DNA from: a virus
Length of the DNA: 20,691 bases
IMG/VR virus record: IMGVR_UViG_3300030108_003797
Coordinates: 1 to 20,691 of that record
Strand: one strand, 5' to 3'
Positions 2,631 through 20,691 of this stretch are shown here, in pieces (within the stretch, counting starts at the first letter, position 1; each line of letters starts with the position of its first letter). The position numbers and the translations under genes were made by a program. The notes beneath the pieces are model-generated. The model was given only the letters and a program-made list of their open reading frames with translations. It made no database searches and was not told where the DNA came from.

Positions 2631-3350
2631 TCATTTAGATAACAATAGCTTAGTGCGCTCTTTCAGCCGATCTCGGTCATACAGCCAGAAAACCAGAAGA
2701 TAACGATCGCCTCGGGCGACCGGCAACCCGCGGTGCAGTTTTGTAAATGATGGGAAGATGAGCGCGTGCCCGGTAGGCAGCGGCTTCAGTTTGCCAGCGC
2801 CGTGAAACTCTGTTCCGCCGCCGTCGTAGTCACCGCTATTCAGTGGCACCACGACACTGATGTCTGCGCTTTCATCATGGTGCCAGGCGCCCTGTTGCTT
2901 GTCGCGGATGTTGTAGTTAGCCAGCTGTATTGAGGCAATGTCTGCACAGTTGCGCTGGTAGAGCTGAAAGAAGATTGGCTGCAGCACGCTTCGCACACAG
3001 AAAAACATGGTCCGGTAGAGCTCGGGCACTTTGTCTTTCAGCACGATCTCTGGGATTTGTCGCAGCTGGTCCTCTTCATCATTGACCTCGAAGAGCCCCA
3101 TCTCCTTCATCTCTTTTATCTCTTCGACCAGCATTTTGCAATACTGCCGACGAAGCAGCGGTGCCCGGTAAATATCTGGGAATAGTTTTTTGATGTGCGA
3201 CTTGATCGGCAGCTGCTCGAGATCCTCCATCCCGCGGCTTGCTTGATATCTTGCAATCATGGGCAATGATGCCTGCGCTGCCTCATACACTGGCTGATGC
3301 ACCATCCAGTGGGATCGCATCGAAAGCAAGTAATTATCGAACTTGTGCAT
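2631..3350 (-). CDS. 2-oxoglutarate/Fe(II)-dependent dioxygenase (prolyl-4-hydroxylase-like)
   Basis: The predicted activity is oxidative hydroxylation using 2-oxoglutarate, O2 and Fe(II); the substrate is unknown. The C-terminal half shows the double-stranded beta-helix signature: His157 and Asp159 in WHHDES as the HxD pair, DYDGGGTEFHG at 174-184, GHALIFPS at 194-201, distal His206 in KLHRGLP, and Arg216 in GDRYLLVFWL as the likely 2-oxoglutarate ligand. All iron ligands are present. The N-terminal ~110 residues are helical and not recognised. The 239-aa length is normal for phage members of this superfamily. The ATG at 3350 has no clear ribosome-binding site (upstream TTGGCAC is weak). It is the first gene of the minus-strand operon that ends in the DNA methyltransferase, and lies divergent from a regulator candidate. 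The GGGTEFH and HRGLP context fits the P4H type better than the TET/JBP type. Confidence 0.9.
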   Translation of the reverse strand: MHKFDNYLLSMRSHWMVHQPVYEAAQASLPMIARYQASRGMEDLEQLPIKSHIKKLFPDIYRAPLLRRQYCKMLVEEIKEMKEMGLFEVNDEEDQLRQIPEIVLKDKVPELYRTMFFCVRSVLQPIFFQLYQRNCADIASIQLANYNIRDKQQGAWHHDESADISVVVPLNSGDYDGGGTEFHGAGKLKPLPTGHALIFPSFTKLHRGLPVARGDRYLLVFWLYDRDRLKERTKLLLSK

Positions 3351-9992: not shown

Positions 9993-11750
9993 TCAAGCCC
10001 CTTTACCGGCCGGCGGTGCTGATGCACGACCGCTGAATACATCCATCATTTCGTACATCAAATCGGTCCCCCGATCTCTGTCTTCTTCCCGTGAGGGCGT
10101 CAAAGTGAGGACACCGTTTTTGTTTTTCATATCGAAGGCACCAGCCCCTCGCACTGCGCGGCCGGTCATCACGAATTCACCGTCGCTCAACATGGCGGGG
10201 ATGTCATCGCTGATTTCGGTACCGGGTCCATCAATGTCGCCGTCCATGCGGACAAACATGGCGCTCTCTACATTACCGCCATCTCTATAACCGACCACTG
10301 GAGCACTAGCTCTTCTGCCCCCGCTTAGTGTCGGCATGGTGTCTTGCGGCAACAGTCCAAACTCTACGGGGTTGGGCGGAGGCTGTCCTGTCCTTCTGGC
10401 GATCTCAGCCTCAATGTTATATCGCCCCGCGGCGTTCATTTGCGTTAGGGGAGTGAGAGGTACGCCCTTGATTTTCTTGGCCTCATCGTAAGCCAATTTG
10501 CCAATGAGACCGGCAAGGCCAGCAGCGCCCAGCATGCCGCCAGGGAAGCCGCCACCGCCACCACCCATGCCGCCGAAAGCATTAGCGAAAGCGTTTCCGC
10601 CGCCCATTTGCTGCTGCCCCGGTTGCAAGACGTTGCCGAAGAAGTCTGTGACATTTTGTGCGAGCCCTCGATTATCGACGCCGGGGGTGATGAATTCACC
10701 TATAGACCCAACCACCCCAGCGCCGGCATACGGACTGATCAAGCCCGCTTTTTGCAAATCAATCAAGATCTCATCGGGGGTCAAGCCTGCTTGTCCTGCT
10801 AACTTGATTTGCTCTCGTATCGCCGGATTATTTTGTCCCGCCTTGAAAAGAATGTCCCCGGGGTCACTGCCAAAAATGGTCTGCCCCAAATTGTCAATGA
10901 GGCCCACCCCATCTACACCGGGCATGATGTATTCGCCAATATTGCCAATGACATTCTGCAAACTGCCAATACCGCTTTGGATCGCTGCGCCAGGGTTACG
11001 GAAAAAATTCGTGATGCTTGAGGCAAAACTGCCGCCGCCACCGGGCATAGGCGCTGTTAATGAGGCGATACCGGCTATTGGGTTCCCAGCCTTAAAGGCA
11101 TCATACGTTGAGTAAGCCCGTGAAATGCCAGCAGCGATTCCCTGGTGAGGGCCCGGTATAAACTGAGCTACATCGGCAATCGGCTTAATGACCTTTTTGC
11201 CGACCTTTTTAATGCTCTTCCACGTCTTTTTAAAAAACCCAAACTCTTCCAAACCTGTGAGCGGGTTGAGACTAGCGATGCCAGCGCCTGCTACATAAGC
11301 CTCTGGATCGAGATCAAGTTCTTGGAACCGTCTCTCTACCGCCAACTCAAACTGTGGGTCGGCCATCATTTGGGGCGGTAACACGACCTCCCCAGGCGTC
11401 AGATGCGCCAATAGAACGTCTTCGCCTCGGCCTGCTTGCGCCAACTCGAGGGCCATATCACCTAACGGCGCCTGTGCCCCTATCTCAGCGGCCTCCGCTA
11501 AACCCTCTGCCACCTTGACCTCTGTGGGATCTTCAGCGGTATCGCGGGCCTCCATCAGTGCGAGTACGGATTGTGTGAGGGCGTCATCCTTCGTTTGCGC
11601 TGGGGCCATCTCAGCTGCTTGCAAACCTCGCGCAACAGCTGGATCCTGTATGTCTATGTAATCAGTGTCTACCGACCCTCCCTCTGCCATCATCATTGGC
11701 ATCTGTGAGGCCCCGAGCATTGCGATCCTTTCTTGCAGAAGTGTGTTCAT
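9993..11750 (-). CDS. Gly-rich virion protein with tape-measure-like PGE(F/V)V motifs, 585 aa
   Basis: Inferred virion structural or ejection protein. Two related phrases stand out: HLTPGEVVLPPQMM at ~116-129 and GPGTEISDDIPAMLSDGEFV followed by MTGRAVRGAG at ~508-537. The second matches the PGTG...D-x-(V/I)PA-(M/L)L-(T/S)-x-GE-(F/Y)-V motif seen near the C-termini of many tape-measure and related phage proteins. A basic segment FFKKTWKSIKKVGKKVIKPI (172-191) precedes hydrophobic Gly/Ala-rich regions. Residues 268-300 and 347-380 are an internal duplication (IGEYIMPGVDG versus IGEFITPGVDN). Residues 382-420 are poly-Gly-like and hydrophobic. ATG 11750 overlaps the TGA of the previous gene and uses its GGTGA as a weak ribosome-binding site. 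It stops one base before the next gene's ATG. Confidence 0.78.
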   Translation of the reverse strand: MNTLLQERIAMLGASQMPMMMAEGGSVDTDYIDIQDPAVARGLQAAEMAPAQTKDDALTQSVLALMEARDTAEDPTEVKVAEGLAEAAEIGAQAPLGDMALELAQAGRGEDVLLAHLTPGEVVLPPQMMADPQFELAVERRFQELDLDPEAYVAGAGIASLNPLTGLEEFGFFKKTWKSIKKVGKKVIKPIADVAQFIPGPHQGIAAGISRAYSTYDAFKAGNPIAGIASLTAPMPGGGGSFASSITNFFRNPGAAIQSGIGSLQNVIGNIGEYIMPGVDGVGLIDNLGQTIFGSDPGDILFKAGQNNPAIREQIKLAGQAGLTPDEILIDLQKAGLISPYAGAGVVGSIGEFITPGVDNRGLAQNVTDFFGNVLQPGQQQMGGGNAFANAFGGMGGGGGGFPGGMLGAAGLAGLIGKLAYDEAKKIKGVPLTPLTQMNAAGRYNIEAEIARRTGQPPPNPVEFGLLPQDTMPTLSGGRRASAPVVGYRDGGNVESAMFVRMDGDIDGPGTEISDDIPAMLSDGEFVMTGRAVRGAGAFDMKNKNGVLTLTPSREEDRDRGTDLMYEMMDVFSGRASAPPAGKGA

Positions 11751-15407: not shown

Positions 15408-16055
15408 CTACGTCACTCCTGTCCTCAACAAGTCATATCTAAATTCATCTCTGGTGGCGCGGCCCTCAGACACATTTTTCATTCTGGCAATACCTTCCTT
15501 GAACCGTTGCTCGAGGGTGCCAATTACATCGGGCGGCTCTTTCAAAAAGACCGCAGCCTCCACCAATGTGCCGTATAGCAAGGGGTCTGGATGATCGGTA
15601 GACAATAGAGTGCTGCCAGAATCGGTGCCCACGGTCAGCGACGGTGGCTTATGTAGATAATGTAGTTCGATTGAGTAGCTTTGGTCTGGCACCGGGGATA
15701 GCTCAAAAGCAGTGTTATCAAACAGACTGTAAAACCGCGGGCGCCCTGTCACCGTTGTGTCAGGGCTAAACTCTTTGATGAACGATGGGTGCTTGTATTC
15801 AAGATAGTGGTATTTGTTACTTGATATCACTGCCAGAGAGAAGGGGGCAAAAAAATCAGAGGGCGTCGCCAGGAACCTGACAGTCGCGGTCACGTTGCCG
15901 GTTACATTCTGACGCTGCTCTGGCAGCTGCACCAGCTTAAAGATACGGCTCTCAGCTTCTTTGATAAACGTGTCTAGGCTGGCGTTGAAAGTTGTCTCAT
16001 CTACCTGCAAATAGTCTTTCACTGCGGTCTTGAGAGTAGAGAGTGTAAAGCTCAT
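15408..16055 (-). CDS. Head-tail adaptor (SU10-adaptor-like), 215 aa
   Basis: The product opens with a helical domain (FTLSTLKTAVKDYLQVDETT, TFIKEAESRIFKLVQLPEQR) and continues with strands LATPSDFFAPFSLAVI, KYHYLEYKHPSFIKEF, GRPRFYSLFDNTAFELSPVP and SIELHYLHKPPSLT. It ends with a helical domain (DPLLYGTLVEAAVFLKEPPD and EQRFKEGIARMKNVSEG). This helix-beta-helix order and the phrase (L/I)P.DFL...(Y)LE match adaptor proteins that attach to the portal in short-tailed phages, such as the SU10 adaptor family. The ATG overlaps the TGA of the previous gene (ATGA), with GGTGA seven bases upstream. It and the gp4-like protein at 16375-17070 are probably successive ring components between portal and tail hub. 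Confidence 0.75.
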   Translation of the reverse strand: MSFTLSTLKTAVKDYLQVDETTFNASLDTFIKEAESRIFKLVQLPEQRQNVTGNVTATVRFLATPSDFFAPFSLAVISSNKYHYLEYKHPSFIKEFSPDTTVTGRPRFYSLFDNTAFELSPVPDQSYSIELHYLHKPPSLTVGTDSGSTLLSTDHPDPLLYGTLVEAAVFLKEPPDVIGTLEQRFKEGIARMKNVSEGRATRDEFRYDLLRTGVT

Positions 16056-16375
16056 GTCGTTGTCACCGTCACCGTCCCGACACTGACCGTAAGCCCAAAC
16101 GGCGTGAGTTGGGTGCCTAATTTGCCTTTGCCGACGTTAGTGTACACCATGAAAAAGTTGCCATCGTTGCCGTCTGCAGAGGGATCGATCCTGGCGTCTC
16201 GCACTGCCTGGGGGTCAATGGGTGGAGGTTTTGGCATGAGCTGCGGGTGCTTGGCCGACCACTGATCAGGGCCGACCAATAGACCGTCCCACGTCTTCTT
16301 CATGTCTTTCAGCTTATAGCGAAAACCCGTGATGTCACAGATGCCGTAAGCATTTTTGCCCGGTGCAAAGGGCAT
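16052..16375 (-). CDS. Small conserved virion-module protein ending in GTVTVTTT, 107 aa
   Basis: The N-terminal part NAYGICDITGFRYKLKDMKK followed by TWDGLLVGPDQWSAKHPQL is a phrase I recall from small phage proteins in connector modules, where it is often YGFCDRCGFRY with two cysteines; here the second cysteine is Thr, so a metal site is unlikely. The C-terminus TPFGLTVSVGTVTVTTT shares GTVTVTT with the protein at 11747-12061. The start is taken as ATG 16375 (overlapping the previous TGA as TGATG) because AGGA lies seven bases upstream; a GTG at 16378, one codon earlier, is the alternative. The stop overlaps the adaptor ATG. Function unknown; probably a connector or tail accessory. Confidence 0.74.
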   Translation of the reverse strand: MPFAPGKNAYGICDITGFRYKLKDMKKTWDGLLVGPDQWSAKHPQLMPKPPPIDPQAVRDARIDPSADGNDGNFFMVYTNVGKGKLGTQLTPFGLTVSVGTVTVTTT

Positions 16376-17070
16376 CACGCTATCCTGTAGATTGTGAGAT
16401 CGGGCGCTACTTTAAATGATGCTCTGCTCTGATCTTGGCTCAAGGCTCGCTCAAACTCTTCTTCATACAGCTGCTTCAGCAGGGGCACTTTCTCAGGCGC
16501 ACGTTTGAGCGCCATGTAATACGCCAAACCCGCTGCCAGGCAGGGGAAAAACCGAAAGGGCATTTCAAGTGTATTCGACCCAACATCTGCGTCATCCATG
16601 CGCACCAGCACATTGACATGGATGGTGTAGGTACTGTTCTTGTCAGGCGCCGGCCACACTGTGATGGTGGGGCTAATCTGCTTGTCAACAAAGTATTGAT
16701 TGGGCTTGCCAGTGGTTGTTTTGGTGGAGATGTGAGCATACTCGGCTCTAGAGAGTTTGCTCAGCGGCACGTCGGTTGTAGTGCCAGATATGGTCTCTCG
16801 GACAAACACATCCAGCACGTCAATAATGCTGGTGGGCGTAGTGGAGTCCACCTCGTAGGTGATAGTGTCCTTCACCGCCGCGATGGTCTTGGCCTTGATT
16901 GTCCACTGATTGAGCCCTCTATTGGCCCACTCGGCCAGCATCAAGTTCAGCGACCTTTGAGCGGTCTTGAGGTCATACCCGGTCCTAAGCTCTAATCCGC
17001 AGCGCTCAAATGCCTCTTCGACGTAGTCTGCAACGTCGAGCTCAAAATCTTTGCTTCCGCTAGTCGCCAT
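16375..17070 (-). CDS. Head-tail connector / tail accessory protein (P22 gp4-like), 231 aa
   Basis: Such proteins form a ring below the portal and prepare it for the gp10-type hub. The N-terminus MATSGSKDFELDVADYVEEA followed by FERCGLELRTGYDLKTAQRS and LNLMLAEWANRGLNQWTIK is a typical all-helical gp4-like opening. The centre is beta-rich (VDSTTPTSIIDVLDVFVRET, SRAEYAHISTK, PNQYFVDKQISPTITVWPAP), then YTIHVNVLVRMDDADVGSNT, and a helical end MPFRFFPCLAAGLAYYMALK with YEEEFERALSQDQSRASF. ATG 17070 is preferred over a GTG at 17079: AGGTG precedes it at good spacing, and family members I recall begin MATSG. The 5' end overlaps the previous gene by 11 bases. Confidence 0.8.
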   Translation of the reverse strand: MATSGSKDFELDVADYVEEAFERCGLELRTGYDLKTAQRSLNLMLAEWANRGLNQWTIKAKTIAAVKDTITYEVDSTTPTSIIDVLDVFVRETISGTTTDVPLSKLSRAEYAHISTKTTTGKPNQYFVDKQISPTITVWPAPDKNSTYTIHVNVLVRMDDADVGSNTLEMPFRFFPCLAAGLAYYMALKRAPEKVPLLKQLYEEEFERALSQDQSRASFKVAPDLTIYRIA

Positions 17071-17749
17071 CGTCCGCACCTGCGTAGAGGTTGTTGAAAA
17101 TTTGATTTACGTCAAGCGTGTAGTCTAAGTCACTTTTGCTGTAATGGATATGTTGTGACGGGCGGAAGTCAGGCGCCCCCTCTCCTGTCTCAAACCAGGC
17201 GGGGTGTGTGACCCTCACGCGATTATTGGGCAGCGCCACAATGTTGCCCGTCCAGAGCCCGGCGTCTAACAGCTCAAGCACATGACTCTGTTTGTGCTGC
17301 GCTGGATCGTCGGCGATTTCGTTCTCGGAGTAATCCACCGTGAAATAATATTTGGCGGGGTAAGTTTCCCCGTCGATAATTGCTAGCCAAGGGCACGGGG
17401 TGGCTCTGTCGAGGACATATACAGCATGATGGTGGGAGCTGCAGTCCCAGGGCTGCGCCGCCCACACGGGCATTGGCTCGGGCCACTCCTCTAAGGCCGT
17501 GTCACCCACCAATGCCGTAATCGGCATGCGAGCCCACATGGCACCGCCATGTACGTTAGGCTCATCATCATCGTCATAAGTTTCAGCGCCTGTAAATATC
17601 AGCTGAAAACTCAAGCACCGTGTAGGCATCGTAGTCACGGCGATCGCCATCGCGTGGATAAACTCGCCGTGATACTTTTGATGGTTATGCGTGTATTCCC
17701 TGCGTACCCAACATTTGAAATGAGGTACGTTACTTTGCAAATATGCCAT
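17060..17749 (-). CDS. Conserved phage protein of unknown function, 229 aa
   Basis: The product begins MAYLQSNVPHFKCWVRREYT and continues HNHQKYHGEFIHAMAIAVTT, a phrase I associate with a conserved family in uncultured aquatic phages that sits just upstream of the gp4-like connector. The body is beta-rich with many aromatics (GGAMWARMPITALV, PWDCSSHHHAVYVLDRAT, YPAKYYFTVDYSENE) and ends with NRVRVTHPAWFE and DYTLDVNQIFNNLYAGADDG. His and Trp are frequent but no catalytic motif is clear. The ATG directly follows the previous TAG, and GGGAG overlapping that stop is its ribosome-binding site. A virion or assembly role is inferred only from context. Confidence 0.78.
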   Translation of the reverse strand: MAYLQSNVPHFKCWVRREYTHNHQKYHGEFIHAMAIAVTTMPTRCLSFQLIFTGAETYDDDDEPNVHGGAMWARMPITALVGDTALEEWPEPMPVWAAQPWDCSSHHHAVYVLDRATPCPWLAIIDGETYPAKYYFTVDYSENEIADDPAQHKQSHVLELLDAGLWTGNIVALPNNRVRVTHPAWFETGEGAPDFRPSQHIHYSKSDLDYTLDVNQIFNNLYAGADDGD

Positions 17750-18301
17750 CTATCTCCCGTAAAGGCCGCTCTTCGTGCTTGACGGTGGACGCATGTTTCG
17801 TTTCACGCCGCCCTTATTGCCGCCCTTGGTTTTCATGGCGCCGCCTTTAGCCATTCCCTTAGACTTCATCATGCCGCCTTTAGCCATTCCTTTAGACTTC
17901 ATCATGCCGCCTTTGGCCATGCCCTTAGTCTTCATGGCACCGCCTTTAGCGTAACCTTTGGACTTCATGGCACCGCCTTTCTTCATGCCCTTGGTTTTCA
18001 TGGCACCGCCTTTCTTTTTTGTTTGAGCCTTTTTCATTCGGTCCCTCAACTTCTTTGAGTCCTTTTTACTGAGAGAGCTATCTACGTCTTTAGCAATCCC
18101 TGAGCCAATATTTTTCATGGCTCCTTCTAATTCTTTCTTAGTCATCGCAGCCCCAGTCACACTGCGTAACATTTTCTCGATTTTTTTACGCTCAGCCTCT
18201 GGGAGGGCAGTCACGTCAACAACGGTTTTTTTCATTGTGATTTTTTTTGCCGGCCCTTTTGACGCACCGCCTTTCTTCATGCCTTTTGCTTTCATCTTCA
18301 T
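17750..18301 (-). CDS. Lys/Gly-rich repeat protein, 183 aa
   Basis: Extremely basic. Residues 1-24 are Lys-rich (MKMKAKGMKKGGASKG). Residues ~27-95 form a helical region (VVDVTALPEAERKKIEKMLR, AMTKKELEGAMKNIGSGIAK, KKDSKKLRDRMKKAQT). Residues 97-162 are six tandem 11-residue repeats of the form KGG(A/M)MK(T/S)KGMA, and the tail KGGVKRNMRPPSSTKSGLYG is again basic. There is no signal peptide. ATG 18301 has GGAG nine bases upstream; the stop abuts the next gene. Similar MKKGG-repeat proteins occur in many marine phages without known function. The charge suggests binding to DNA or to acidic virion surfaces, which is inference. The neighbour upstream also carries GMKKGGSAKKGG, so the two may share a partner or origin. 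Confidence 0.8.
   Translation of the reverse strand: MKMKAKGMKKGGASKGPAKKITMKKTVVDVTALPEAERKKIEKMLRSVTGAAMTKKELEGAMKNIGSGIAKDVDSSLSKKDSKKLRDRMKKAQTKKKGGAMKTKGMKKGGAMKSKGYAKGGAMKTKGMAKGGMMKSKGMAKGGMMKSKGMAKGGAMKTKGGNKGGVKRNMRPPSSTKSGLYGR
17816..18013 (-). repeat. Six 33-bp tandem coding repeats (11-residue Lys/Gly units)
   Basis: Six in-frame units code for KGGAMKTKGMK, KGGAMKSKGYA, KGGAMKTKGMA, KGGMMKSKGMA, KGGMMKSKGMA and KGGAMKTKGGN. Units four and five are identical at protein level and nearly so in DNA, which suggests recent duplication. Copy number is likely to vary by slippage or recombination. Confidence 0.9.
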
Positions 18302-18316
18302 GGTAAAAATCTCCAG

Positions 18317-18958
18317 TTATTTAGGAACCCGGGTGGTCTTGCGCTTAGCGTTCATCATGGCGCCGCAGCCTCGAGCCTGGAGCTCTACCATCCCACCGTT
18401 ACGCATATTGCGAGCAATCGCCTCACCGCGCTTCCGCTCGTACTTACTGATCTTGCCATCCTTGTTAAGGTCAGATTTTTTCGCATCAAATTCCACACTG
18501 CCTCCCGTTTTCTTTTTCAGAAGGTCAGCGTCTGCCTTACGCGCACCGCCCTTTCCAGTGGCAAAAGATCGGACTCTACCGCAGGCCCATGCGCTGGCGG
18601 GGACGTTACGAGAGCCGCTACTGTAATAAGCGCCAAGACCGCGCTTGTAAACCTTATTGAGTGTAGAAACTGATTTGCCGCTGCTTTTCGCGTGCTTCTT
18701 GACGCACGCCGGTGTGCCGCCACCGCCCTTCTTAGCTGAGCCACCTTTCTTCATACCTCTTGCTGCACGCTCTTTTGAGATGCGGTCCATTTCTGCTTTG
18801 GTCAACGTACCCTCCCTGGCCTTTTTGGCCGTGCGCTTCATTTCAGCCTCTTTGGCTTTTTTCTCAGACGCGCTCAATCCCTCTAGATATTTGAGCGGAG
18901 TGCCTTTGCGATTTTTGGGCACCGGAGCGAACTTCCGTTTAGCTACTGCTTTAGCCAT
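18317..18958 (-). CDS. Lys-rich protein with DUF5824-like domain and one EF-hand loop, 213 aa
   Basis: Residues 1-80 are Lys-rich and probably helical, ending in RGMKKGGSAKKGGGG. Residues ~96-146 (STLNKVYKRGLGAYYSSGSR, then ASAWACGRVRSFATGKGGAR and KADADLL) match the pattern of a domain I recall as DUF5824, widespread in phages and large viruses, whose role is unclear. Residues 163-174, DLNKDGKISKYE, are a canonical 12-residue EF-hand loop (D1, N3, D5, G6, I8, S9, E12). The end, NGGMVELQARGCGAMMNAKR, resembles a short Gly/Arg tail common at the C-termini of small aquatic phage proteins. ATG 18958 has AGG eight bases upstream. The gene lies between the three-EF-loop protein and the Lys/Gly repeat protein, with gaps of about 15 bases. 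Confidence 0.78.
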   Translation of the reverse strand: MAKAVAKRKFAPVPKNRKGTPLKYLEGLSASEKKAKEAEMKRTAKKAREGTLTKAEMDRISKERAARGMKKGGSAKKGGGGTPACVKKHAKSSGKSVSTLNKVYKRGLGAYYSSGSRNVPASAWACGRVRSFATGKGGARKADADLLKKKTGGSVEFDAKKSDLNKDGKISKYERKRGEAIARNMRNGGMVELQARGCGAMMNAKRKTTRVPK

Positions 18959-18973
18959 AGAGTGCCTAACCTC

Positions 18974-20446
18974 TCACTTTCTCGAAGCTGGTATTCGGGC
19001 GGACAAGCCGCCAGAATCGGGCAAATTCATAGGCGGTATCGCTGTCAGGCGACGCGGGTCACTAATGATTCTGCGACCACCCGGTGGACGTGGCATTGGC
19101 TCTCTATTGCTAAAATCATCAGGCGCTTGGTATCCGATAGACTCCAGATAGTCGGCGATTTGCTTTTGCAGTGCCGTCAGGTCGAAATTGCCGCCAAAGA
19201 TGCCAGGTATTCCTTGCGCTCGGATGCCGTCAATTGCCTGCTGCACGCTGTCGGCCACTGGTGGAGATGCGTCTGCCGCTTGTGTCGCCCCTTGAACCGT
19301 CCCGAGCGTGTTGAGGAAAGCTTGCCCTGGGCTGGTGGGTGCGATATCAGACGTCAGCTGCTGGTCGGTTTCCTCCAACGGTACAGGAGTGCCGACAGGC
19401 ATTGTGGTAACTGTTCCAGGTTCTTGAGCGCGCATAAACTCTGCATATTCCGCGTTAGTGACCATGCCGTCATTATTCAAATCGTAGCCCTGCTGAATGC
19501 CGTAGCTCTGCTTGGCTAAGGCTTCTAGGCGCGTCATCCCGCTATCCATCAGCTCTTGAATCCGTGACTCAACTCCAGTGAAGTCTGGATTCATTGACAT
19601 CTGAAACTCAGCGTTTGTCACAACGCCGTCATTGTTGATGTCATAACCCTTAGAGATGGAGCGTAGTTGTTGCTCTAAAGCTTCCTCTCTAGTCAGCCCT
19701 TGCCTGCTAGGGTCCATCAGCTGCGCGATACGATCATCTAGATTCGCTCTTGGATCGTCAGCGCCGAGAACAGGTACGGGCTCGGGAGTTGGGGTAGATT
19801 CCGGCGGCGCCTGTGGTGTGGAGCGATCAAACACGGGCCGACTAAAATACTCAGCAAAACCCTCATAAGGGCTGCGAGAGCCGCCATACTCCAGCATTGC
19901 TTCTCTCATTACAGCAGAAGCGTCGGGGCCAAATAAAGATTCTTGCGTGGCGGGAGGCATGATGGGCATGGTGGATACCTCATCGCGATCATCAATCCCG
20001 TTGCCATTATCGTCAATAAATCTCATGTCGCGAATCATACCGCCCTCTTGCATGCGCATCGGCGGAGGCTGCATTTGACGCCGATCAGCGATTCTGTCTG
20101 CCGCTCGCCTTCTTGCCAAAATCTGTTCTATCAGACTGCTTATTCCCAATCCGCTTGATGAGCGAGCTGGGGGACCAAAGTTAAACGGGCCCGGGACAAA
20201 GGGCTCGGGGCCGCTAGAAGGCGGTATAAACCCTAGTCCAAGCTGATTACGTCCGCCCGTTGGAGAGGGCATTCTTGTGGGGCCGGGGCCACCCAAATTA
20301 GGTGGCATCTGCCCAAGTCTAGGTCCGCCAGTAGGCGGGCTTACTCTTGTGGGGATGTATGGGTTCCGCGGACTCGGTGGCATGTTTGGATTCATCAACT
20401 GCGTGCCGGGCGCTGATTGTCTTGCCATATTTGTAAAAAATCCCAC
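18974..20446 (-). CDS. Pro-rich protein with three EF-hand-type calcium loops, 490 aa
   Basis: Residues 1-95 are Pro/Gly-rich and likely disordered. A short helical segment (SSLIEQILARRRAADRIADR) precedes the first loop, DDNGNGIDDRDE at 145-156, which is atypical at position 8. Loops two and three are canonical: DINNDGVVTNAE at 269-280 and DLNNDGMVTNAE at 322-333. Each is preceded by a related helix (LTREEALEQQLRSISKGY and MTRLEALAKQSYGIQQGY), so residues 238-281 and 294-334 are a tandem duplication. The C-terminal part is again Pro-rich. Calcium binding is inferred from the loops. The start is GTG 20446 because GGGAG lies seven bases upstream; an ATG at 20428 is the alternative but lacks such a site. 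No known phage virion protein was recognised with certainty; context suggests a structural or assembly role. Confidence 0.8.
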   Translation of the reverse strand: MGFFTNMARQSAPGTQLMNPNMPPSPRNPYIPTRVSPPTGGPRLGQMPPNLGGPGPTRMPSPTGGRNQLGLGFIPPSSGPEPFVPGPFNFGPPARSSSGLGISSLIEQILARRRAADRIADRRQMQPPPMRMQEGGMIRDMRFIDDNGNGIDDRDEVSTMPIMPPATQESLFGPDASAVMREAMLEYGGSRSPYEGFAEYFSRPVFDRSTPQAPPESTPTPEPVPVLGADDPRANLDDRIAQLMDPSRQGLTREEALEQQLRSISKGYDINNDGVVTNAEFQMSMNPDFTGVESRIQELMDSGMTRLEALAKQSYGIQQGYDLNNDGMVTNAEYAEFMRAQEPGTVTTMPVGTPVPLEETDQQLTSDIAPTSPGQAFLNTLGTVQGATQAADASPPVADSVQQAIDGIRAQGIPGIFGGNFDLTALQKQIADYLESIGYQAPDDFSNREPMPRPPGGRRIISDPRRLTAIPPMNLPDSGGLSARIPASRK

Positions 20447-20458
20447 GGGCTTCTCCCT

Positions 20459-20691
20459 CTACCAATTCTTGCAAGACCAGTAGCTGGCCGCGAAAACATC
20501 TTTCTTCTTCTCTACCGCGTCACAATTATGACGGGCTCGAAAATTCTTACGGCGCCCCGGCTGATCTTTTTTGATAGTCATGTTGGGATCGCCATATCTC
20601 ACAATCTTTACCTGGTCCCCTTTTTTTGCGAGAACCTTAAACTTTTTGTTTCCCCCAGGTGTCCGTACCTGCTTGTTATAACCAGGGAAGC
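20459..20691 (-). CDS. Small basic DUF6321-like protein, partial (5' end outside window)
   Basis: A frame open from the right edge to TAG at 20459 codes for about 76 residues of a very basic protein: TPGGNKKFKVLAKKGDQVKI, VRYGDPNMTIKKDQPGRRKN, then FRARHNCDAVEKKKDVFAAS and YWSCKNW at the end. The order of a VKI-VRYGD strand, an RRKNFRARHNCD segment and a terminal AS-YW-x-x-K-x-W matches a small protein family I recall from T4-like and other phages (DUF6321), normally about 75-90 residues, so little is missing. Two cysteines (NCD and WSCKNW) could form a metal or disulphide pair. The function is unknown. It ends 12 bases before the GTG of the EF-hand gene, and that gap holds the GGGAG ribosome-binding site of the latter. 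Confidence 0.75.
   Translation of the reverse strand, partial: FPGYNKQVRTPGGNKKFKVLAKKGDQVKIVRYGDPNMTIKKDQPGRRKNFRARHNCDAVEKKKDVFAASYWSCKNW

Follow-up and report, generated by a model that had tools for sequence, protein, structure and literature searches.

EF-hand-type sites have been much studied in eukaryotes and are known in bacteria. Members of the EF-hand superfamily (PF00036 / PS00018) have acidic or amide residues at loop positions 1, 3 and 5, Gly at position 6, a hydrophobic residue at position 8 and Glu at position 12. In phages, an EF-hand-like calcium site can serve as a switch in an enzyme, as described for the lysin LysGH15, where the site has the loop-F arrangement described also for dockerin (PMC4022735). 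The PS00018 signature has been sought in the structural proteins of the chelator-sensitive phage TP-84, and none was found (PMC5889276). In the literature we found no report of a phage structural EF-hand, or of an EF-hand-type site as a conserved swappable element of the phage head or neck. The gene block considered here is related to that of Pam1, a short-tailed cyanophage with structure-based annotation of the capsid, cement, adaptor and needle-head proteins (PMC9382816).

The DNA studied here is a linear virus fragment of 20,691 bases (the window), for which the initial annotation had reported four EF-hand-type loops in two adjoining genes coding for proteins of 213 and 490 aa. All four were located in these neighbouring ORFs at the place reported (Table 1), and far above chance: the 12-residue PS00018 loop was matched twice in the 490-aa protein (0.0055 expected in composition-preserving shuffles) and once in the 213-aa protein (0.0007 expected), and no such match was present in all the other genes of the window, a total of 6,630 residues. 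Loop 1 of the 490-aa protein, at aa 145, fails the pattern. The 490-aa protein scored just under the cut-off of Pfam EF-hand_1 (25.0 bits against 25.4, E = 1.1e-5) and the 213-aa protein under that of EF-hand_5 (14.2 bits against 25.9, E = 0.03), and dockerin type I (PF00404) likewise stayed under its cut-off with E = 0.014 and 0.17, the latter in the single-loop 213-aa protein. The loops resemble the EF-hand superfamily in the ligand positions listed above and in the two-sided helices of one modelled unit (unit B), but differ from it in being single units in a Pro-rich viral protein, in the repeat spacing of 53 residues and in the Pfam scores that fall just short. The sequence data support taking them for true EF-hand-type loops that evolve under purifying selection, with metal binding as a prediction.

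Table 1. Positions in the window of the two loop-bearing genes, their parts and the neighbouring genes of the same block.
Feature	Position	Strand	Remarks
C-terminal part of upstream small basic protein, g97 family	20459..20689	-	HTVC041P counterpart is a weak DUF5754 match
490-aa Pro-rich acidic protein, fast-evolving family in one syntenic slot	18974..20446	-	GTG start, pI 4.7, 12.7% Pro
Loop 1 DDNGNGIDDRDE, aa 145-156, DxNxNG[IV]DDRDE motif, register variant of EF loop	19979..20014	-	
Conserved family core, aa 183-208, consensus SPYxGxxxYLxxRPVFDR	19823..19900	-	
EF unit A, aa 229-286, first copy of helix-turn-helix-loop-helix repeat	19589..19762	-	
Canonical EF loop DINNDGVVTNAE, aa 269-280, in unit A	19607..19642	-	
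EF unit B, aa 288-341, second copy	19424..19585	-	
Canonical EF loop DLNNDGMVTNAE, aa 322-333, in unit B	19448..19483	-	
213-aa very basic protein, DUF5824 + EF cassette + RGCGA tail	18317..18958	-	pI 10.7, net charge about +38
DUF5824 domain, aa 21-145	18524..18898	-	PF19141 E = 5.3e-9, 36.8 bits, cut-off 25
EF cassette EFDAKKSDLNKDGKISKYERKRGEAIARNM, aa 156-185, virus-specific loop-plus-exit-helix module	18404..18493	-	
Canonical EF loop DLNKDGKISKYE, aa 163-174	18437..18472	-	
Conserved C-terminal tail GGMVELQARGCGAMMNAKRKTTRVPK, aa 188-213	18320..18397	-	also on adjacent gene in relatives
183-aa Lys-rich repeat protein, AKGGAMKTKG-type repeats, downstream in same block	17750..18301	-	
229-aa conserved protein (g229), independent synteny anchor	17060..17749	-	
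Head-tail adaptor, SU10_adaptor / Pam1 type, first copy	16375..17079	-	
Head-tail adaptor, SU10_adaptor / Pam1 type, second copy	15408..16055	-	

We give a probability of about one half to the reading that the loops are constitutive binding sites for divalent metal, serving as small, swappable structural staples in a pair of minor proteins from the head/neck block of a Pam1-like short-tailed phage. The metal would be Ca2+ (or Mg2+), both proteins would be part of the virion, and the binding would be structural rather than regulatory. The overall weakness of the AF2 models, the lack of a significant PDB match to the 490-aa model, the optional nature of the EF units and the cultured Pam1-like relatives, whose capsid-adaptor region has no PS00018 loop on the coding strand, count against this reading.

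In the 213-aa protein the loop is part of a cassette of about 30 residues, FDAKKSDLNKDGKISKYERKRGEAIAR, for which homologues and profile scans gave the consensus FDAKKSDLNKDGKISxYERxRGEAIA, followed by the C-terminal GGxV..RGCGAxM...KRKxTRVPR. The part preceding the cassette is swapped among relatives: it is DUF5824 in the group of the window, many others have half of DUF5872 (the N-terminal one), and in proteins of 59-60 aa there is nothing. In the model, which is of low confidence, residues 151-162 are coil and a helix follows the loop at residues 172-184, and so there is no incoming helix; judging by this model the cassette would be a loop with an exit helix as in dockerins and not a full EF-hand. 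The resemblance to dockerin type I and other loop-F sites, including LysGH15, would lie in just this arrangement of a 12-residue loop and one helix. However, dockerins have a tandem pair whereas the cassette has a single loop with a weak PF00404 match, and the LysGH15 site is in an enzyme domain, unlike the small basic head/neck-block protein here. Alignment of the cassette against solved structures gave no match, and when the 213-aa model was compared with predicted viral structures in Foldseek, it matched DUF5824 proteins that have no assigned function (three rows from annotated phage records were excluded from the input for structure modelling). As a structural staple, the loop and exit helix would make up a compact module, flanked on one side by a basic domain that can be exchanged (in the window, DUF5824) and on the other by the conserved RGCGA tail, and the metal-bound module would hold the small basic protein together.

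Several observations on the relatives of this gene can be added. DUF5872 is seemingly split over two adjoining genes (L136:5344-6001, L193:3940-4493 and similar loci). The EF cassette is, or once was, part of the gene with the N-terminal half, and the C-terminal half is encoded by the following gene; in several contigs both genes end in RGCGAxM...TRVPR, a tail that has the look of a portable tag. The 213-aa gene itself is divided near aa 71-75 into two ORFs that overlap and lie in different frames at L025:2443-3067, L026:2775-3705, L027:6561-7410, L028:3-792 and L031:7980-8472, as would result from a split gene, frameshifting or sequencing error.

It is possible, although we consider it rather unlikely, that the 213-aa protein, like its basic neighbours, is associated with the DNA inside the head, where the cassette would stabilise the fold or pair proteins and have no role outside the capsid. 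The pI and net charge of the 213-aa protein, which are similar in the neighbouring 183-aa protein, would fit this, as would the swapped N-terminal domains DUF5824 and DUF5872, both small and uncharacterised, and the tail common to two adjoining genes, as a targeting tag might be. In addition, DUF5872 and DUF5754 proteins have been listed in an algal giant virus (PMC12085832). On the other hand, no DNA-binding fold was recognised in the weak structure model.

As had been proposed, both canonical loops of the 490-aa protein belong to a unit that is duplicated; it is about 53 aa long and the copies are 48% identical. In the AF2 model, unit B has helices at residues 290-301, 306-318 and 331-341 (block pLDDT 69-91 over aa 291-340), and by this model it would be a helix-loop-helix with helices flanking the loop on both sides. 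The corresponding part of unit A (residues 267-287, including the loop) has a pLDDT below 50, the rest of the model outside unit B is also poor, and the mean pLDDT of the 490-aa and 213-aa models is 58-59. A Foldseek search of the 490-aa model against PDB gave no significant match, and a solved-structure search with the EF region found weak EF-hand proteins only (best E = 0.0037). PHROGs and Pfam gave just coiled-coil-type or spurious matches for 50 members of the family.

The proteins in this slot belong to a single modular family, in which the core and the C-terminal region are conserved and the middle is highly variable. EF units with the loop DLNNDGxVTNAE occur in 21 of 57 members, in one or two copies and mostly as a single unit, and a scan for the unit found 48 viral loci. 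Being optional, the units are not essential to the family. They alternate with long coil-like stretches free of Pro and Gly, which most members without EF units carry: these stretches have a median of 47.5 residues in members without EF units and 23 in members with them (Mann-Whitney p = 3e-8, not corrected for relatedness), and coiled-coil-type Pfam matches are common across the family. If the loops are staples, one or two EF units in the middle of the Pro-rich protein would take the place where relatives have long coiled-coil-like rods, and metal binding would order and stiffen this spacer.

Loop 1, which had been described as an atypical third loop of the same protein, does exist, but it is better seen as a separate motif than as an atypical EF hand. 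DxNxNG[IV]DDRDE is found in 12 family members including the window, with variation restricted to positions 2, 4 and 7, and is an independent conserved motif. Short Pfam searches gave no assignment for it.

The placement of both genes in a phage structural module was borne out by synteny, and both proteins are presumed to be in the virion. The capsid genes are outside the window and the upstream order was read from longer relatives. One of these (L012) and dozens of further contigs have, in this order, a scaffold-like gene, g157, g195, the major capsid protein (PF25209), g236, g134 and g97, followed by the 490-aa slot, the 213-aa slot, the Lys-rich gene, g229, an adaptor, g107, an adaptor, further genes and the stabilisation protein; from the capsid and cement-like genes through g97, the two EF slots, the Lys-rich gene and g229 to the adaptor, dozens of contigs show the order unchanged. 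Both the capsid protein and the stabilisation protein have matches in DSL-LC04, the pelagiphages HTVC023P and HTVC027P, the Roseobacter phages CRP-901 and CRP-902 and the Planktothrix phage Pag-Yong1. The match of the stabilisation protein to DSL-LC04 covers 99% of its length with 38.8% identity, the capsid of L012 is 65.8% identical to that of DSL-LC04, and the DSL-LC04 record names its adaptor 'Pam1 adaptor protein' and a gene after the capsid 'cement protein'. The block thus has the homologous capsid, adaptor and needle-head/stabilisation genes of a Pam1-like head/neck module, and the gene order and Pam1-type matches together place the EF genes between the capsid and the neck of a Pam1-like podovirus. 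DSL-LC04, HTVC027P, CRP-902 and Pag-Yong1 have these genes in similar order, but on the coding strand of their capsid-adaptor region there is no PS00018 match, and the insertion of the two genes is therefore assigned to the uncultured lineage.

Some features of the neighbouring genes are also worth recording. The 183-aa protein has MKxKGxAKGGAMK-type repeats and a C-terminal SGLYGR, and similar tails are found on the equivalent gene in L136 and L157. The best PHROG of g229 is labelled ferredoxin, and elsewhere (L148, L153-L156, L163, L184) the gene adjoins terminase-like or oxygenase-like genes away from the EF genes. The opposite end of the window carries a C-5 cytosine DNA methylase gene (3-1451) and a likely 2OG-Fe(II) oxygenase-type gene (2631-3350; weak OGFOD2-like match, under the cut-off).

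The loss of acidic ligands in close homologues, which would speak against the loops, was not seen wherever the loop was retained. Among 73 distinct nucleotide versions of the cassette, collected with a pattern that required Asp1, Asp5, Gly6 and Glu12, position 3 was always N or D and position 9 was Ser in 72. The dN/dS-like ratio was 0.085 at ligand positions and 0.25 at the other loop positions, with synonymous sites near saturation. The ligand test was repeated in a non-circular way by anchoring on the C-terminal tail alone, and all 72 contexts with a loop were canonical (17 variants). As for tail contexts without a loop, L136 and L138 have the same gene minus the whole cassette, L115 is incomplete, L145 has the tail on another gene, and the remainder are the adjacent DUF5872-C gene. 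Hence, in these tail-anchored contexts no decayed loops were seen and the cassette is either intact or wholly gone, which is as selection for metal ligation predicts, the binding itself being a prediction.

Since earlier loci had been fetched via the cassette, which is a bias, the test of its presence was redone with g229 as an independent anchor. The cassette was present in 15 of 18 syntenic loci, so it is not universal; two of the other three are close relatives in which the gene is otherwise retained, and the third is without the gene. A broader g229-anchored count gave 21 of 55, lower mostly because the anchor gene occurs in other contexts. As the cassette is cleanly missing from three relatives, it is not essential to virion stability across the group.

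This pattern bears on the calcium switch suggested by the initial annotation for the moment when the phage meets the low-calcium cytoplasm. On such a reading the sites would stay unfilled while particles assemble in the host cytoplasm and be occupied once lysis releases them into calcium-rich water, which would lock the particle, or they would empty again on DNA entry and trigger release. The strong selection on canonical ligands, the location of the genes within the head/neck block and the LysGH15 precedent (PMC4022735) are all in line with a switch. However, EF units are found in just over a third of the 490-aa family, the cassette is missing from some of the independently anchored relatives, and the presence of both proteins in the particle is presumed. 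The argument from seawater was dropped as evidence because the record of the window carries no habitat information. A switch between seawater and cytoplasm is thus possible but unsupported, and we consider it improbable. That the loops have ceased to bind metal and persist as evolutionary relics, or are mere generic turns, is very unlikely, because relic loops would drift: the Pfam scores under the curated cut-offs and the one-sided helix in the 213-aa model would agree with it, but the ligand positions stay constant amid variation in neighbouring positions and codons, and no intermediates of decay were seen. A constitutive structural role remains the reading we prefer.

The loops had been called uncommon, which holds for annotated phages, as the cassette is nearly absent from them (5 of 50,697 records), but does not hold for its own phage group: a profile scan found it encoded in at least 553 stretches of IMG/VR, although the contigs may be redundant. 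Only two loci in 84,980 species genomes encode it, both in a phage-like context, and the cassette is therefore a virus-specific module; a host origin was rejected on the same scan. One related observation is from L192, a contig of 119,860 bases from a Paracoccaceae single-cell genome, which has a CRP-3-like phage region with the EF cassette, either an integrated phage or a contig mixture.

The cassette is also found inside otherwise unrelated proteins of cultured phages, namely gp36 (1292 aa) of CRP-3 and gp39 (383 aa) of CRP-738, both Roseobacter phages, and gp27 (45 aa) of the Pelagibacter phage HTVC041P. In these the cassette sequence is the same, and its place in the head gene block is between the portal/scaffold genes and those of the coat; the CRP-3 and CRP-738 proteins differ from that of the window in having a AMLSEGEYVLPA-type segment in place of the RGCGA tail. 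Further, the tape-measure-like protein of the window (9993-11750) has a short DDIPAMLSDGEFV-type segment that recurs beside the cassette in the CRP phage proteins L036 gp36 and L037 gp39. The cassette occurs also on a 75.8-kb contig (L035) with genes for a T4-type single-strand-binding protein, a DnaB-like helicase and a UvsX-like recombinase. One could speculate that it has been passed among unrelated aquatic phages (Pam1-like and CRP-3-like short-tailed phages and that of contig L035) and inserted into various small head proteins as a calcium sensor of inside versus outside the cell, but we hold this to be a long shot.

The observation of the initial annotation was correct and better supported than could be known when it was made; its framing as an oddity with a seawater switch is only partly supported. 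What emerges is more interesting than that: an EF-like cassette, virus-specific and swappable, that is widespread in a large group of uncultured phages and shared with a few culturable ones. Because a few of its carriers, Roseobacter and Pelagibacter phages, are in culture, the importance of calcium could be tested with CRP-3, CRP-738 or HTVC041P.
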